Origin: Cereibacter ovatus
GTDB taxonomy: Bacteria > Pseudomonadota > Alphaproteobacteria > Rhodobacterales > Rhodobacteraceae
NCBI RefSeq assembly: GCF_900207575.1
Contig: NZ_OAOQ01000002.1
Coordinates: forward strand, 300,587-364,586
DNA length: 64,000 nt
Reading direction: 5' to 3'
The notes beneath the pieces are model-generated. The model did no database searches. It was given only the letters and a program-made list of their open reading frames with translations, and had not been told where the DNA came from. Made by a program: the position numbers and the translations under genes. Positions 14,550-62,999 of this stretch are shown in pieces (position 1 is the first letter of the stretch; every line of letters begins with the position of its first letter).

Positions 14550-14631
14550 CGCGCCCTCCGCGCAGCGAAGGCAGGCAGGCGCAGGGACAGCCCCTTGCGC
14601 CGGGACACCCTGCCCGGGGTCAACATATGAC

Positions 14632-14800
14632 GGCAGGTCTCCTGACTTGCGGGTCATCGCTTGTCCCGCCCTTCCCGGCCTGTCCTGTGCCAGTGGGCAT
14701 GATGGGACGCACTTACCGCCTACAGTTGCGGGGGCAGTCGTGGCTTTGGGCCGGGGCCCGCACCACATTCCCTTTTCACCCGGATCTGGATCCGGGAACC
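14632..14800 (-). ncRNA. Cobalamin (AdoCbl) riboswitch
   Basis: Read on the minus strand, the region carries the conserved aptamer blocks in order: AAGGGAATGTGGTGC, AAAGCCACGACTGCCCCCGC, the GCAACTGTAG block, GCCCACTGGC, CCGGGAAGG, and the B12 box AGTCAGGAGACCTGCC at 14647-14632. The 5' boundary near 14800 is approximate; a GGATCCAGATCCGG palindromic segment lies there. It sits about 80 bases upstream of the DUF1636 gene start and should repress this operon when adenosylcobalamin is abundant. Confidence 0.95.
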
Positions 14801-14857
14801 GTCGCGGTCAGCATCGGGCTTTCCCTGTCGCCGCGCAAGTCCCGCCGCGCCGCAGGG

Positions 14858-22824: not shown

Positions 22825-24162
22825 ATGCGCCTGAGCCGCTATTTCCTGCCCGTCCTGAAAGAGAACCCGTCAGAGGCGCAGATCGTCAGCCACCGTTACA
22901 TGCTGCGTGCCGGCATGATCAAGCAACAGGCGGCGGGGATCTATTCCTGGCTGCCCATGGGCTTCAAGGTGCTCAAGCGCATCGAACAGATCGTGCATGA
23001 GGAACAGATCCGCGCCGGTCACATCCCGCTGCTGATGCCGACGCTGCAACCGGCGGACCTGTGGCGCGAGTCGGGGCGCTATGACGATTACGGCGAAGAG
23101 ATGCTGCGCATCACCGACCGCCACAAGCGCGAGATGCTGTATGGCCCGACGAACGAGGAGATGATCACCGACATCTTCCGCAGCCATGTGAACAGCTACA
23201 AGGATCTGCCGCTGACACTGTATCACATCCAGTGGAAGTTCCGCGACGAGATCCGCCCGCGCTTTGGCGTGATGCGGGGGCGCGAGTTCCTGATGAAGGA
23301 CGGCTATAACTTCGATCTGGATTTCGACAGCGCGATCCATGCCTATAATCGCCACATGGTCAGCTATCTGCGGACCTATGAACGGATGGGGCTTCAGGCA
23401 ATTCCGATGCGCGCGGCCTCGGGGCCGATCGGCGGCGACAACACGCACGAGTTCCTTGTGCTGGCGTCCACCGGCGAGTCGGAAGTGTTCTATGACGCCG
23501 CGATCACCGATCTGAAGTTCGGCGACCGCGTGGTGGACTATGACAACCGCGAGGAATGCGAGGCGATCGTCAAGGAATGGACGACGCCCTATGCCCGCAC
23601 CGACGAGACCCATGACGAGGCGATCTTCAACGCCATCCCCGAAGACCGTCGGCGGAGCTCGCGCGGGATCGAGGTGGGCCAGATCTTCTATTTCGGCACC
23701 AAGTATTCGGAACCGATGGGGGCCACCGTGGTCACCGCCGACGGGGCCCGCGTGCCTGTCCACATGGGGTCGCACGGGATCGGGGTGTCGCGGCTGCTGG
23801 GCGCGATCATCGAGGCCAGCCACGACGACAAGGGGATCATCTGGCCCGAAGGTGTCACGCCCTTCCACGTCGGGATCGTGAACCTGAAGCAGGGCGACAG
23901 TTCCACCGATCCGGCTTGCGAGGCGCTGTATCGCGAGCTGTCGGCCAAGGGGCTGGAGCCGCTTTACGACGACCGCGACGAGCGGGCGGGGGCGAAATTC
24001 GCCACGATGGATCTGATCGGCCTGCCGTGGCGGATCACCGTCGGCCCGCGCGGCATCGCCTCGGGCAAGGTCGAGCTGACCTGCCGGCGCACCGGCGAGA
24101 GCGAGGAGCTGTCAGCGGGGGCGGCGGTGGACCGGCTGGCGCAGATCTACGCGCAGATCTGA
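22825..24162 (+). CDS. proS: Prolyl-tRNA synthetase, short alphaproteobacterial type
   Basis: ProRS charges tRNA-Pro. At 445 residues it is the short form that lacks the INS editing domain of E. coli ProRS (572). Class II motifs are visible: [20 protein letters not shown] near the N-terminus, [21 protein letters not shown] without breaks, and the motif 3 region [14 protein letters not shown]. The C-terminal anticodon-binding domain follows. The ATG at 22825 is 12 bases after AAGGGG. The spacer of about 160 bases to perM holds both divergent promoters. Confidence 0.96.
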
Positions 24163-24185: not shown

Positions 24186-24238
24186 CCGGGGGGCTGTCTG
24201 CCCCCCGGACCCCCCGAGGATATTTGAGCCAGAATGAA
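24186..24238 (+). repeat. Hairpin plus GGATATTTG repeat, copy 1
   Basis: A perfect 8-bp stem CCGGGGGG / CCCCCCGG with loop CTGTCTG (24186-24208) is followed by the core CGAGGATATTTGAGCCAGAATGAA. It lies 23 bases after proS. Two more copies lie at 38369-38420 and 62168-62220. It may also act as the proS terminator, although no T tract follows the stem directly. Confidence 0.85.
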
Positions 24239-24312
24239 AGGGCGATGGCATCGCCCGAATCGGGGTTTGCCGGATCTGTCCGAGAGGCGGCCGGAGGGGA
24301 AGGGCAGGGATC

Positions 24313-25599
24313 ATGGCGAGCCGGACCAGACCGTTTGCCGCGTTCGAATGGATGATCGCCTGGCGCTATCTGCGGGCGCGCCGCGCCGAGGGGGGCGTGT
24401 CGGTGATGACTTGGATCAGTCTGATCGGGATCACGCTGGCGGTCTTTGCGCTGATTGCGACGCTGGCGGTGCGGGCGGGGTTCCGGGCCGAGTTTGTCGA
24501 CACGATTCTGGGGGCGAATGCGCATGTCTCGGTCTATTCCGCAGGGCGGGTGGCCGAGACCGGGCAGCTTCTGCGCGGATTTGAGGATTATGACGCGGTG
24601 GCTGTGCGGTTGCGGCAGGTGCCGGGGGTGGTTCGGGCGGCGCCGGTCGTGAAGGGGCAGGTGATGGCCGCCGGGCGCGGGGCCTCGACCGGGGTCGAGG
24701 TGTTCGGGATGCGGTCGGAGGATCTGGCATCGATCCCGCGGGTCGGGGTCGGGGCGGATGCCTATGGCGACATTGGCCGGTTTGGCGAGGGGATCGCCAT
24801 CGGATCGGGGGTTGCGCAGGAGTTGGGGGTGACGGTCGGCGACCGTATCCGGCTGATCTCGCCCGATGGGGTGAAGACCGCGTTCGGCACCTCGCCCCGG
24901 GTCTCGGCCTATGAGGTGGTCTATGTCTTTACCGCGGGCCGCTATGACATCGATCGGACGCGGGTCTACATGCCGCTGGCCGAGGCGCAGAGCTATTTCA
25001 ACCGCGAGGGTCGGGCCGACGAGATCGAGGTGATGGTGGCCGCGCCCGAGAGGGTCGACGATCTGGGGCCGGTGCTGATGGCTGCGGCGGGGGCGGGCGC
25101 GATGGTCTGGACCTGGCGGGATTCGGCGGGGGCATTCCTGCGGGCGCTGGATATCGAGGACAATGTGATGTTCGTGATCCTGTCGATTCTGGTGTTGATC
25201 GCGTCGATGAACATCATCTCGGGGTTGATCATGCTGGTGAAGAACAAGGGCCGCGACATCGGCATCCTGCGCACGATGGGGTTGACCGAGGGGTCGATCC
25301 TGCGGGTGTTCTTCCTGTGCGGGGCCTCGACCGGGTTGATCGGGACGGCGATCGGTGTGGTGCTGGGCTGTCTGTTCGCGATCTATATCGATCCGATCTT
25401 TTCGGCGGTGAACTATGTTGCGGGGGGCGGGGTCTGGGATCCGTCGATCCGCGGCATCTATGCGCTGCCGGCGAAGTTGCAGGTTCAGGATGTGGTGTCG
25501 GCGGTGGCGCTGTCCTTGGGGCTGTCTTTCGTTGTCACGCTGGTGCCGGCCCGGCGGGCGGCGCGGATGAACCCGGTCGAGGCCCTGCGCTATGAGTGA
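24313..25599 (+). CDS. lolC: Lipoprotein-releasing ABC permease LolC/LolE
   Basis: LolC/E proteins form the membrane part of LolCDE, which extracts outer-membrane lipoproteins from the inner membrane. The 428-residue product has one N-terminal transmembrane segment (about 29-52), a large periplasmic MacB-like domain, and three C-terminal segments (about 288-310, 332-355, 390-410). The ending [15 protein letters not shown] is diagnostic of the family. A single LolC/E-type gene next to lolD is common in alphaproteobacteria (LolF-like). It overlaps lolD by 8 bases. Confidence 0.92.
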
Positions 25600-29490: not shown

Positions 29491-29566
29491 GCCGCACTAG
29501 CTCAGCTGGTAGAGCAATCGCTTCGTAAGCGATGGGTCGGGGGTTCGAGTCCCTTGTGCGGCACCA
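29491..29566 (+). tRNA. tRNA-Thr (CGT)
   Basis: The 76-nt cloverleaf has acceptor arms GCCGCAC and GTGCGGC, D-arm AGCTCAGCTGGTAGAGC, anticodon loop TTCGTAA with anticodon CGT (reads ACG), T-arm GGGGGTTCGAGTCCC, and an encoded CCA end (29564-29566). It marks the left border of a small mobile-DNA region. Confidence 0.97.
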
Positions 29567-31457: not shown

Positions 31458-31532
31458 TGGTGAGCGGGGTGGGTATCGAACCCACGACCAGCTGATTAAA
31501 AGTCAGCTGCTCTACCACTGAGCTACCCGCCC
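31458..31532 (-). tRNA. tRNA-Lys (TTT)
   Basis: On the minus strand the 75-nt cloverleaf has acceptor arms GGGCGGG and CCCGCTC (one G-T pair), D-arm AGCTCAGTGGTAGAGC, anticodon loop CTTTTAA with anticodon TTT, T-arm GTGGGTTCGATACCCAC and an encoded CCA. It points toward tRNA-Thr and marks the right border of the mobile-DNA region. Confidence 0.97.
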
Positions 31533-37824: not shown

Positions 37825-38313
37825 ATGGACCGTGTGATCGACGCCGAGGCGCTGCCCTATCGGCCCTGTGTGGGGATCGTGCTGATCAATGCCGAGGGGC
37901 TGATCTTTGCCGGGCAGCGCATCGACAGCCCGGTGCCGGCCTGGCAGATGCCGCAGGGCGGGATCGACGAGGGCGAGAAGCCCCGCGAAGCCGCCCTGCG
38001 CGAGTTGTGCGAGGAGACCGGCATCACCGCCGATCTGGTCGAGTTCGTGGCCAAGGCGCCGGAGTGGGTGACCTACGATCTGCCGCCCGAGTTGCTGGGC
38101 AAGGTCTGGGGCGGGAAATACCGCGGCCAGCGGCAGAAGTGGTTCCTGCTCCGCTATCTGGGCACCGACGATCAGGTGGGAATCGGCACCGATCATGCCG
38201 AATTCTCGCGCTGGTGCTGGATCGGGGCGGATGAGATGATCGCGGCGATCGTGCCGTTCAAGCGCGCGGTCTATGAGCAGGTGGTGGGGATGTTCCGCAG
38301 CCATCTGCGTTGA
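37825..38313 (+). CDS. rppH: RNA pyrophosphohydrolase RppH
   Basis: RppH removes pyrophosphate from mRNA 5' ends and so starts RNase E decay. The 162-residue product has an intact Nudix box [17 protein letters not shown] then CEETG, and the RppH-type start [11 protein letters not shown] and WQMPQGGI. It follows ctpA by 13 bases, with a GGGGGG ribosome site. Confidence 0.94.
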
Positions 38314-38368: not shown

Positions 38369-38420
38369 CCGGGGGCTTCGCGCCCCCGGACCCCCGCGGG
38401 ATATTTGGGCCAGAATGAAG
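38369..38420 (+). repeat. Hairpin plus GGATATTTG repeat, copy 2
   Basis: The stem CCGGGGGC / GCGCCCCCGG region (38369-38389, loop around TTCGC) is followed by CGCGGGATATTTGGGCCAGAATGAAG. It differs from copy 1 at a few core positions. It lies between the convergent rppH and folC and could terminate both. Confidence 0.85.
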
Positions 38421-38439: not shown

Positions 38440-39714
38440 TCAGCCGTTTTCGCGCAGGATCGTGCCGGCGAGGTAGAGTGAGCCGCAGATCAGGACGCGG
38501 GCGGCGGGGGTTTGAGTTGCGATCGTGGCAAGGGCCGCGGTGACCGATGTGGCGGTGCTGGCCTTTATACCGGCGGCGCGGGCGCTGGTGGCGGTGGTTT
38601 CGGCGGGCAGCGTGTTCTGTTCGCCGGGGATTTCCACGGCGTGGAGGTGGGTGGTGTGCGGTGCGAGCGGGCGCATGTAGCCGGTCACGTCCTTGGTGTT
38701 CAGCATCCCGCAGATCAGGTGGGTCGGGCGTGGGGGCATCCGGGCGAGGGTGGCGGCGATGGCTTCGCCTCCGGCCGGGTTATGGCCGCCGTCGAGCCAG
38801 AGTTCGATGCCGGGGGCGCTGTCCGCCAGCGGGCCGCGGCGCAGGCGTTGCATCCGTGCGGGCCAGTCGGCGCGGGTGACGGCGGCTTCGGCCGCGGTTT
38901 CGGGTTGGCCGAGGTGGCGCAGCGCCATCAGTGCGGCGCCGGCGTTCTGGATCTGATGGGGGCCGGGCAGGTTCGGCAGCGGCAGGTCGAGAAGGCCGGT
39001 TTCGTCCTGAAAGATCAGGCGGCCGCGGTCTTCGAACGCGTGCCAGTGCTGGCCATGGGCAAGGAGGGGGGCGCCGAGGCGGGCGGCGCGGGTCTCGATC
39101 ACGGCAAGCGCCTCGGGGAGTTGCGGGCCGACGATGCAGGGGGTGAGGCGTTTCAGGATGCCGGCCTTTTCACCGGCGATCTCGGGCAGGGTTTCGCCCA
39201 GATACTGCTGATGGTCGATCGAGATCGGGGTGAGGATCGTCAGGCGGGGGCTGTCCACCACATTGGTCGCGTCGAGCCGGCCGCCGAGGCCCACTTCCAG
39301 AAGTGTGACGTCGGCGGGGGTTCGGGCGAAGGCCAGCAGCGCCGCGCAGGTGGTGATTTCGAAGAAGGTGATCGGCTCGGGACCGTTCGCGTCCAGGCAT
39401 TCGTCCAGCAGGGCTGACAGCGCCGGTTCCGAGATCAGATCGCCCGCAAGGCGGATGCGTTCGTGAAACCGCGCCAGATGGGGCGAGGTATAGGCGTGGA
39501 CCTTCTGCCCCTGCGATTCCAGCCCGGCACGGATCATCGCCTGGGTCGATCCTTTGCCGTTGGTTCCGGCGATATGGATCACCGGGGGCAGGCGGCGTTC
39601 GGGGTGGCCGAGTGCTGCCAGAAGCCGATGCACCCGGTCAAGTGTCAGGTCGATGATCTTCGGATGCAGCGACATCATCCGCTGCAGGATGAGGTCCGAG
39701 GCGGGCAGGCTCAC
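38440..39714 (-). CDS. folC: Folylpolyglutamate/dihydrofolate synthase FolC
   Basis: FolC adds glutamate to dihydropteroate and folates. The 424-residue product has the ATP loop HIAGTNGKGST, HERIRLAGDLI, the LGGRLDATN segment and LDGGHNPAG. The start is GTG at 39714, overlapping the accD TGA as GTGA; an ATG at 39678 is the alternative. It is co-translated with accD, as in many proteobacteria. Confidence 0.95.
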   Translation of the reverse strand: MSLPASDLILQRMMSLHPKIIDLTLDRVHRLLAALGHPERRLPPVIHIAGTNGKGSTQAMIRAGLESQGQKVHAYTSPHLARFHERIRLAGDLISEPALSALLDECLDANGPEPITFFEITTCAALLAFARTPADVTLLEVGLGGRLDATNVVDSPRLTILTPISIDHQQYLGETLPEIAGEKAGILKRLTPCIVGPQLPEALAVIETRAARLGAPLLAHGQHWHAFEDRGRLIFQDETGLLDLPLPNLPGPHQIQNAGAALMALRHLGQPETAAEAAVTRADWPARMQRLRRGPLADSAPGIELWLDGGHNPAGGEAIAATLARMPPRPTHLICGMLNTKDVTGYMRPLAPHTTHLHAVEIPGEQNTLPAETTATSARAAGIKASTATSVTAALATIATQTPAARVLICGSLYLAGTILRENG

Positions 39715-60961: not shown

Positions 60962-62140
60962 TCACTCGTCGTTGCCGCCGCGGCGGAACGGGCCATAGGC
61001 GGTCAGAACCTCGATGTCTTCGGTCGTGGCGCGACGTTCGGCCTGAAGATAGCGCGCGACAGCCTCGGCCAGGCCCGGATCTGCGAACCAGTGCAGTGAA
61101 TGGACCGGAACCGGCAGATAGCCGCGGGCCAGCTTGTGTTCGCCCTGCGCGCCGGCCTCGACCCGGTGCAGGCCATGGGCGATCGCCCAGTCGATGGCCT
61201 GATGATAGCAGAGTTCGAAGTGAAGGCAGGGGTGATCCTCGGTGCAGCCCCAGTAGCGGCCGAAAAGCGTGCGCCGCCCGATGAAGTTCAGCGCGCCCGC
61301 GACCGGGCGGCCGGCGCGTTCGGCCAGAACCAGCAGGATGTCGTGGCGCATCCTGTCGTGAAATTCCGTAAACGCACGACGGGTCAGGTAGGGTCGGCCC
61401 CATTTGCGGTTGCCGGTGTCCTGATAGAAGGCCCAGAAGGCATCCCAATGGGCGGGCTCGATCTGGTCGCCGGTCAGGCAGCGGATGGTGCCGCCGAAGG
61501 CCTGTGCGGTGTCGCGTTCCTTGCGGATGGCCTTGCGCTTGCGCGACGACAGGTCGGCAAGGAAGTCGGCAAAGCTGGTGTAGCCGCGGTTTTCCCAATG
61601 GAACTGCTGGGTGGTGCGCGGCATGAGGCCAAGGCGGGCGCCGGCCTCGGCCTCGGCCGCGGTGCAGAAGGTGACGTGCAGCGAGGAAAGCGCATTGCGT
61701 TCGGCAAGGTTCAGCGTGCCGCGGATCAGGGCGGTGCGGCCGGTGTCTTCGTCCCCCGGGCGGGTCAGGAAGCGCCGGCCGGTGGCCGGGGTGAAAGGCA
61801 CCGCCAGTTGCAGTTTGGGGTAATAGCGCCCGCCCGCGCGTTCGTAGGCATGGGCCCAGTTGTGGTCGAAGATATATTCGCCCTGACTGTGGCTTTTGGC
61901 GTAAAGCGGCGCCGCGGCGATCAGGCGCCCGTCGGCACGCGCCACCAGAGGCAGCGGCTGCCAGCCGGTGCCCGGCCCGACCGAGTCTGAGCGTTCCAGT
62001 GCCGACAGGAAGCGGTGGGTGGTGAACGGGTCTTCGGGCCGGCCCGTGGCCGCTTCGGGGCAGGCCACCGCATCCCAGCAGGTTTCCGGGATCTCGGCGA
62101 TGGAGGCGTGGGCGGTGATCTCGATCTCGGGTCGGGTCAT
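60962..62140 (-). CDS. FemAB/GNAT-related protein, COG3146 family
   Basis: The 392-residue product matches the COG3146 (formerly DUF482) group: EDPFTTHRFLSALERS, GEYIFDHNWAHAYERAGG, SSRKRKAIRKERDTA and GAQGEHKLARGYLP. These are FemAB-like acyltransferases of unknown substrate, sometimes annotated as peptidogalycan synthesis. It is cytoplasmic by sequence. Copy 3 of the repeat lies directly upstream. Confidence 0.8.
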   Translation of the reverse strand: MTRPEIEITAHASIAEIPETCWDAVACPEAATGRPEDPFTTHRFLSALERSDSVGPGTGWQPLPLVARADGRLIAAAPLYAKSHSQGEYIFDHNWAHAYERAGGRYYPKLQLAVPFTPATGRRFLTRPGDEDTGRTALIRGTLNLAERNALSSLHVTFCTAAEAEAGARLGLMPRTTQQFHWENRGYTSFADFLADLSSRKRKAIRKERDTAQAFGGTIRCLTGDQIEPAHWDAFWAFYQDTGNRKWGRPYLTRRAFTEFHDRMRHDILLVLAERAGRPVAGALNFIGRRTLFGRYWGCTEDHPCLHFELCYHQAIDWAIAHGLHRVEAGAQGEHKLARGYLPVPVHSLHWFADPGLAEAVARYLQAERRATTEDIEVLTAYGPFRRGGNDE

Positions 62141-62167: not shown

Positions 62168-62220
62168 GCGGGGGGCTGTCTGCCCCCCGCGCCCCCCGAG
62201 GATATTTGTGCCAGAATGAA
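62168..62220 (+). repeat. Hairpin plus GGATATTTG repeat, copy 3
   Basis: The stem GCGGGGGG / CCCCCCGC with loop CTGTCTG (same loop as copy 1) is followed by CGAGGATATTTGTGCCAGAATGAA. It lies between two minus-strand genes, downstream of the GDPD and upstream of the FemAB-like gene, so here the core is antisense to transcription, unlike copy 1. Confidence 0.85.
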
Positions 62221-62228
62221 GGGGGCTG

Positions 62229-62999
62229 TCAGGTGGGAAGTGGGGCGAGGTAGTGTTCGAAGGTGATGTTCTGGGCGATGCGGCGGGCGGCGGCTTCGTC
62301 CTTTGGTGAGCGGATGGTCCAGCACAGGATGGCGGCGCCTTGCGCCTTGAGTTCGGCCACGCGCGGGCGGTCGAGGTCGGGGGCTTCGTGTGAGAGGAAG
62401 CTGGCGTCGGTGCGGTCGTAGTCGGGGATCGCGCGCAGGCGGTCGCAGGTTTCAGTCGGGACGGGGGCCCAGTCTTCGGGGCGGTAGGACGAGGTGACGA
62501 GGCCGCGCGGAAGGTGGGGGGCGAGGCGGGCCATTTCGGCGATGCTGTGCGGGTTGAAGGACATCACGGCCACCGGGCCGGTGTAGTCTTGCAGGGCGCG
62601 GGCGGTGGCGGCTTCGAGTGGGCCAACTGCCGGGCAGAGGGTGCCGGACTGGTCCTTGATCTCGATCAGCAGGGGGGCGCGGCCTGCGACGAGGGTCAGC
62701 ACCTCGGGCAGGGTGGGGATGGTGTCGTCGCTGTCGCGCAGGGGGATGCGGCCGAGGTCGGCGGCGGTGCGGGCGGCGACGGGACCGGAGGCGTGGGTCA
62801 GGCGGTCGAGGGTTTCGTCGTGGAACACCATCGCTTGGCCATCGGACGACAGTTGCAGGTCGATTTCGATGGCATAGCCGGCCGTGATTGCCGCGCGGAT
62901 GGCGGCGGGCGAGTTTTCGGGCCGGCGCGCCCTGCGGTCATGCAGGGCGCGGTGGGCGATGGGCAGGTGCAGGAACGGGGCGGGCAGGGGGATGCGCAT
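62229..62999 (-). CDS. Glycerophosphodiester phosphodiesterase family protein
   Basis: The 256-residue TIM-barrel product has the GDPD motifs IAHRALHDRRARRPENS (His and Glu), EIDLQLSSDGQAMVFHDETL and LIEIKDQ. It hydrolyses glycerophosphodiesters to glycerol-3-phosphate. No signal peptide is seen, so it is probably cytoplasmic. Its ATG shares a base with the RidA-like stop. Confidence 0.9.
   Translation of the reverse strand: MRIPLPAPFLHLPIAHRALHDRRARRPENSPAAIRAAITAGYAIEIDLQLSSDGQAMVFHDETLDRLTHASGPVAARTAADLGRIPLRDSDDTIPTLPEVLTLVAGRAPLLIEIKDQSGTLCPAVGPLEAATARALQDYTGPVAVMSFNPHSIAEMARLAPHLPRGLVTSSYRPEDWAPVPTETCDRLRAIPDYDRTDASFLSHEAPDLDRPRVAELKAQGAAILCWTIRSPKDEAAARRIAQNITFEHYLAPLPT

Follow-up and report, generated by a model that had tools for sequence, protein, structure and literature searches.

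Triple-helix H-type pseudoknots are known from RNA, where telomerase RNA and the SAM-II riboswitch contain them. In bacterial DNA, intrastrand-triplex repeats named TM-ECO or PIT have been described from E. coli and other proteobacteria (Holder et al. 2015, PMC4666352; Hoyne and Maher, cited there). The intrastrand purine triplexes of E. coli are stable in vitro; the repeats are intergenic, show no strand bias, and are numerous in some strains but missing from relatives, and neither promoter or terminator activity nor any function has been found for them (PMC4666352). Rhodobacterales have a hairpin motif, HRC-8-4, which has been described mainly between ccoNOQP and ccoGHIS and consists of a stem followed by a U-run, with a conserved loop tip (PMC8632094). 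Whether intrastrand triplexes act in bacterial cells is an open question, and covariation bears on it.

Here we describe a dispersed repeat of the Rhodobacteraceae, three copies of which lie in a 64,000-nt stretch of Cereibacter ovatus DNA (the window). We found no description of it in the open-access literature that we searched; an older account under another name is possible.

Copies in the window and the genome

A first-pass annotation of the window had reported three copies of an intergenic repeat, all on the plus strand, and its positions hold: the core is exact at 24218-24238, 38399-38419 and 62200-62220, against a chance expectation of 0.01 for the 64-kb window. The parts of the three copies are as follows.

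24186-24208, plus strand: copy 1 stem S1, with CC-GGGGGG (24186-24193), closing C24194, loop TGTCT (24195-24199), G24200 and CCCCCC-GG (24201-24208); hairpin predicted, stem extension from covariation
24209-24215, plus strand: copy 1 linker A (24209) and candidate third strand CCCCCC (24210-24215), equal in length to the stem G-run
24216-24217, plus strand: copy 1 tail GA, putative pseudoknot S2 with loop TC (24197-24198), from complementarity
24218-24238, plus strand: copy 1 core GGATATTTGAGCCAGAATGAA, in the gap between proS (22825-24162, plus) and an FtsX/LolC-like permease gene (24313-25599, plus)
38369-38389, plus strand: copy 2 stem S1, with CC-GGGGG (38369-38375), C38376, loop TTCGC (38377-38381), G38382 and CCCCC-GG (38383-38389); hairpin predicted
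38390-38398, plus strand: copy 2 linker A (38390), candidate third strand CCCCC (38391-38395) and tail GCG (38396-38398), complementary to loop CGC (38379-38381)
38399-38419, plus strand: copy 2 core GGATATTTGGGCCAGAATGAA, in the convergent gap between a NUDIX gene (37825-38313, plus) and a Mur-ligase/FolC-like gene (38440-39714, minus)
62168-62190, plus strand: copy 3 stem S1, with GC-GGGGGG (62168-62175), C62176, loop TGTCT (62177-62181), G62182 and CCCCCC-GC (62183-62190); hairpin predicted
62191-62199, plus strand: copy 3 linker G (62191), candidate third strand CCCCCC (62192-62197) and tail GA (62198-62199), complementary to loop TC (62179-62180)
62200-62220, plus strand: copy 3 core GGATATTTGTGCCAGAATGAA, antisense between two minus-strand genes, a GDPD-like gene (62229-62999) that ends just past the core and a FemAB-like gene (60962-62140) next

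Compensatory variation in the stem and conservation of the non-coding core, both claimed at first pass, are borne out. The stems differ and still pair (CCGGGGGG/CCCCCCGG in copy 1, CCGGGGG/CCCCCGG in copy 2, GCGGGGGG/CCCCCCGC in copy 3), and the relation to genes differs as described: tandem on the plus strand after proS, convergent between the NUDIX and Mur-ligase genes, and antisense between two minus-strand genes. Single-strand folding without pseudoknots predicts S1 on both strands of all three. No sigma-70-like promoter was found at the three window copies, and at their S1 stems there is no terminator-like hairpin followed by a T-run, the signature of an intrinsic terminator. The only terminator-like match near them is separate from S1: a palindrome, GGGCGATGCCATCGCCC, at 24240-24256 (minus) that abuts the copy 1 core and is followed by TTTCATTC on the minus strand. 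The window also holds a cobalamin riboswitch aptamer (14615-14816, minus, 129 bits) and two tRNA genes (29491-29563, plus; 31461-31532, minus).

A genome-wide scan for the core, proposed in the first-pass annotation as the check on whether the copies number only three, found 102 in the genome that holds the window (G000; 3.8 Mb, 62 contigs; at most 3 mismatches), 49 forward and 53 reverse, compared with 0 matches for the reversed pattern. Three congeners carry similar numbers (61 in G001, 62 in G002, 60 in G004), a fourth, G003, has 0 genome-wide, and several further genera have 30-60 copies each. A copy with the same core also lies in Cereibacter sphaeroides (CP031752.1; L288, ~1501-1556), between gap and the fructose-bisphosphate aldolase gene, beside a RuBisCO gene.

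We extracted 163 copies from G000 and G002 to define their anatomy. The main plan, class A (102/163), reads G(n)-loop-C(n), then 3 nt of linker, a second C(n), a tail X (1-3 nt) and the core; class B (34/163) replaces the linker with a second GC hairpin; class C (19/163) has another conserved head, GTCGGAGCCTCCGGCGG, before the same core and lacks the triple run; and 8 copies are decayed or odd. The run length n is 4, 5 or 6, with 4 or 5 triples in most copies. Of 135 copies, 127 have a second C-run as long as the stem (shuffled sets average 50 and reach 67 at most), and in 131 the loop contains the reverse complement of tail X (at most 97 after shuffling). The stem runs two pairs below the triple run, since the two bases 5' of the G-run pair with linker bases 1 and 2 (87/98; shuffle maximum 66). 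Two class C copies form an inverted pair ~150-170 bp apart that is kept in both species (G000 C31:257047/257217; G002 C1:1251680/1251829) and resembles the inverted pairs reported for TM-ECO.

The first-pass annotation had thus seen the hairpin and the core. What it had overlooked is that a second C-run of stem length follows, that the bases behind this run pair with the loop, and that the genome has 102 copies. Its list of options (a protein site, a processed RNA or a REP-like sequence) likewise omitted a third strand coded in base triples together with a loop-tail pseudoknot.

Covariation of loop and tail across the family

A strict 36-nt pattern that leaves loop and tail free was run over 295 genomes (294 genera) of one family, which named records identify as Rhodobacteraceae. 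It matches 121 of these genomes, in 120 genera, and its reversed control matches 0; in 285 other alphaproteobacterial genomes the pattern, with one mismatch allowed, is absent save for one low-complexity match. In 80 distinct sequences, hand-picked among the matches listed and omitting rows whose runs are in another register, S2 pairs in 93.8% of cells compared with 64.5% after shuffling. Both sides are altered in 87 cells, and 0 of 500 shuffles reached an equally high value; these 80 sequences are related by descent, so that shuffle counts are not probabilities and more weight rests on the recurrence across many genera. All slid-register controls are far lower. The S2 pair types include CAC:GTG, CGC:GCG, TGC:GCA, TCC:GGA, CAG:CTG and GCC:GGC, and the core differs between genera.

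Outside the family, a Rhizobium leguminosarum plasmid (NZ_CP016290.1, conjugative; L287 401-442) carries a lone triple-run element, CCAGGGGGCTGTCTGCCCCCCTGGACCCCCGAGGATATTTG, whose core is truncated. Transfer between lineages is possible in this case.

Third strand and predicted fold

The order of bases in the second pyrimidine run distinguishes two origins: a copied 3' arm gives a direct repeat, and a Hoogsteen strand lying along the purine arm gives a mirror. Searching all GTDB genomes for GAGGG-N7-CCCTC-NNN-YYYYY returned 56 stretches, 46 of which read CTCCC, the mirror, and 0 of which read CCCTC; of the 46, 42 come from Rhodobacterales and 4 from Candidatus Competibacter. Opposite GAGGG, CTCCC stands in 42 of the 44 Rhodobacterales matches and CCCTC in 0. 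An independent pattern agrees, in which a GGGAGG/CCTCCC stem is followed by the third strand CCCTCC. Among 42 asymmetric A-containing stems at retrieved loci, a set that overlaps that of the GAGGG search, 30 are perfectly parallel and 0 antiparallel, and one element conserved between G000 and G002 keeps the parallel order with a stem G5-T-G4 and a third strand C5-GA-C4 or C5-G-C4. We also considered a Watson-Crick helix between the G-run and the second C-run; it requires the direct repeat CCCTC, which was seen 0 times, and we rejected it.

The four Candidatus Competibacter repeats (L176, L178, L191, L194) read GAGGG-CGTTCCC-CCCTC-GCG-CTCCC-CCC-GGATATTTGTTCTCC; in this gammaproteobacterium the same mirrored triple run occurs without the core.

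Three parts present together define a triplex pseudoknot: a stem, a loop-tail helix, and a third strand whose register is that of base triples. We therefore consider it very probable that the repeat encodes a triple helix made by one strand folding back, with a loop pseudoknot as its lock, and covariation shows this predicted fold to be under selection. That the triplex forms in cells is something we infer from the same patterns. The plus strand would give the pyrimidine motif and the minus strand the purine motif. With consecutive G triples, the purine motif is the one stable at neutral pH, and consecutive protonated C triples, as on the plus strand, are unfavourable there. The types of mismatch do not decide which strand folds: the loop-tail helix has 4 A-C and 0 G-T mismatches, and the stem extension 4 A-C and 3 G-T.

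It could be argued that the C-runs and the loop complementarity are by-products of a GC-rich base composition, of tandem duplication or of gene conversion, and that the fold is not selected. The genome is indeed high in GC, conversion between copies is possible, and head types are few and shared, so that copies are not independent. However, the shuffle and slide controls contradict this account, the third strand is parallel rather than a direct repeat, and compensatory types recur in ~120 genera. We regard it as highly improbable.

Genomic context

Genes were called with a GC3-seeded caller, whose calls in the window were compared with Pfam as a check. As REP sequences do, the copies lie outside genes and at gene 3' ends (157 of 163 intergenic). 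They occupy 56 tandem gaps in the same sense, 42 tandem gaps in antisense, 54 convergent gaps and 5 divergent gaps; the 938 background gaps comprise 247, 289, 148 and 254, respectively. Divergent gaps are avoided (5/157 vs 254/938, p = 8e-14), convergent gaps are enriched (54/157 vs 148/938, p = 2e-7), and orientation in tandem gaps is near neutral (56 vs 42, p = 0.19). In tandem gaps the foot of the hairpin lies a median of 14 nt after the stop codon in one orientation, and the core 12 nt after it in the other. The copies are anchored to gene ends by either face.

This placement invites an explanation at the level of RNA, in which a transcribed 3' UTR folds as a triplex pseudoknot that blocks 3'-to-5' exonucleases or halts RNA polymerase, and so protects or ends the upstream mRNA. 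Copies at 12-14 nt after stop codons and the enrichment in convergent gaps fit such a role, as does the AUAUUU that follows the fold on the plus strand. A compact Watson-Crick pseudoknot is available to the RNA whichever strand is transcribed, which makes an RNA 3'-end role a serious rival. Yet the triplex motif and the core are strand-specific, and the near-neutral tandem orientation is hard to square with them in RNA; moreover, S1 in the three window copies lacks the hairpin and T-run of a terminator, and the C. sphaeroides copy sits within an operon-like run of genes. On balance we consider the RNA-level account possible and somewhat unlikely.

The first-pass annotation had also raised orientation along the replication axis. 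This idea did not hold up: in single-contig G002, whose origin and terminus were placed from sampled regions only, copies on either strand occur before and after the skew switch, and no replichore-following (KOPS-like) orientation was seen.

Evolution at orthologous loci

Of 45 loci with both flanks matched between G000 and G002, 39 keep the element, 37 of them in the same orientation. Core identity at these loci is 93%, compared with 40-43% for ungapped neighbouring stretches. At some loci all runs shift together, and loop and tail shift together: between G000 C34:333871 and G002:1663204 both C-runs go from 6 to 5, TC:GA becomes CC:GG, and the linker hairpin is kept, a change for which replacement by another copy is a poor explanation. 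At other loci the head type is swapped and the core is unchanged.

Loss of the core at the same locus in relatives, which the first-pass annotation had set as a test, gave a divided answer at proS. The element is present in the proS gap of G000 and its core is kept in G001, G002 and G004, and it is absent in G003 and in other genera with the same gene order. The absence in G003 is general: all 17 distinct orthologous gaps (within 400 kb) are empty, there are 0 copies genome-wide, and no decayed cores were found above background in that genome. Two G003 gaps keep hairpin-like fragments. In a tree of nine genes (3,214 columns), G003 falls inside the copy-bearing group and G000 outside it (support 93/95 for G003+G002+G004, 100 for G002+G004). 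Given this nesting and the loci common to G000 and G002, wholesale loss from a G003 ancestor that had copies would be the simplest reading, supported but not certain. Among the genes missing in G003, the ~400 kb compared yielded only four candidates, none of them nucleic-acid-binding-like by eye.

These patterns also bear on a mobile or selfish, REP-like origin, in which some enzyme would recognise the folded single strand and the core, and copies would be retained at harmless gene ends. Dispersed copies with cores that differ between genera are what one would expect of such an element, as are a proS-gap copy shared by four congeners and missing from other genera with the same gene order, the all-or-none presence among congeners, and the head-type swaps at fixed loci. 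However, a Y1 (RAYT-type) transposase (PF01797) had 0 matches in G000-G004, G013, G016, G020 and G025-G027, including the copy-rich genomes tested, and searches for a core-recognising transposase or a phage origin found nothing. Orthologous loci mostly retain their copy and its orientation, and coordinated compensatory change in place implies that selection acts on copies that stay put as well as on any that move. We thus find a mobile origin rather improbable. The first-pass term "REP-like" remains apt in the loose sense of a dispersed gene-end repeat; a REP-type transposase was not found in the copy-rich genomes tested.

Proposed explanation

We propose that the purine arm and a pyrimidine arm of one strand would form the hairpin S1, and that after a short turn the second pyrimidine run would become a third strand, placed alongside the stem and parallel with the purine arm. 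The triples would be C on G-C and T on A-T, and on the other strand purine-motif G on G-C and A on A-T. The 1-3 bases after the third strand would then pair with the hairpin loop (S2), locking the triple helix as a pseudoknot, with the 21-base conserved core directly beyond the S2 tail. While transiently single-stranded during transcription or replication, the G-rich (minus) strand could adopt the purine-motif triplex; the core may be the duplex landing site of a putative family-specific factor; and the element could serve as a boundary or barrier between a gene end and its neighbour in either orientation.

For this explanation as a whole, a triplex at the DNA level with a core read by a factor at a boundary, we put the chances at about even. 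Its parts differ in strength. DNA is favoured over RNA because orientation is neutral, and we hold the choice of DNA to be evenly poised. Dependence on a trans-acting factor could equally go either way, and the core is a possible protein site. The boundary role is a tentative suggestion. It is tempting to speculate about a dedicated gene-end system, in which a selected triplex pseudoknot and a genus-specific core read by a trans-acting factor would be lost together with all sites in lineages such as G003, an idea that we offer as doubtful but worth stating.

Some observations weigh against the proposed explanation. The 19 class C copies (of 163) have the core without the triple run, and the E. 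coli analogue showed no triplex signal when in duplex DNA, with in vivo footprinting that did not support a stable triplex (PMC4666352). Nevertheless, among hundreds of copies over ~120 genera each one's variation tracks the base-triple code and the loop lock, and this is evidence from evolution that the fold is in use. This variation points to a selected job for triple-stranded DNA or RNA in bacteria. With a defined core, a natural loss in G003 and close copies in Cereibacter (Rhodobacter) sphaeroides, a tractable laboratory species, both the fold and its putative reader are open to testing.

Comparison with known systems

Like HRC-8-4, the repeat is a hairpin motif restricted to an order, but HRC-8-4 is not a dispersed triple-run repeat (PMC8632094). 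With the triple-helix H-type pseudoknots of RNA it shares a stem, a loop paired with the 3' side and a third strand along the stem. Those, however, are single RNAs or riboswitch leaders, whereas this is a genome-wide repeat without transcription orientation, and no Rfam family matched it above the gathering score. REP, BIME and REPIN elements with their RAYTs are similar as short extragenic palindromic repeats found after genes in dozens to ~100 copies. They differ in that the Y1 transposase is absent from the copy-rich genomes tested and the copies here are mostly fixed at their loci; the third strand, the pseudoknot and the core are not REP features.

The likeness to TM-ECO/PIT goes further. 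Both are dispersed, intergenic, G/C-rich repeats of three runs, with the potential for a purine-motif triplex on one strand and a pyrimidine-motif triplex on the other, a 3-nt second loop, no strand bias, copy numbers that range from many to none between close relatives, and no linkage to phages or transposons. In the present repeat, too, three runs on one strand are able to form G.G-C/A.A-T or C.G-C/T.A-T triples. Nevertheless, the order of the runs on the G-rich strand is purine-N3-purine-loop-pyrimidine here and pyrimidine-loop-purine-N3-purine in TM-ECO, so that both run order and sequence depart from the TM-ECO consensus CCCTCNCCC-N3-6-GGGNGAGGG-N3-GGGNGAGGG. The stems have 4-6 triples compared with 9, and most copies fall short of the ITxF search rule of at least 6 triples, which only the n = 6 copies would pass. 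Placement is at gene ends here and more often upstream of ORFs in TM-ECO, and loci are mostly stable here and unstable there. Finally, the loop-tail pseudoknot lock and the fixed 21-nt core belong to the Rhodobacteraceae repeat and not to TM-ECO. TM-ECO/PIT is thus the closest known kind of element, to which the Rhodobacteraceae repeat adds a loop lock and a core; it is not TM-ECO.
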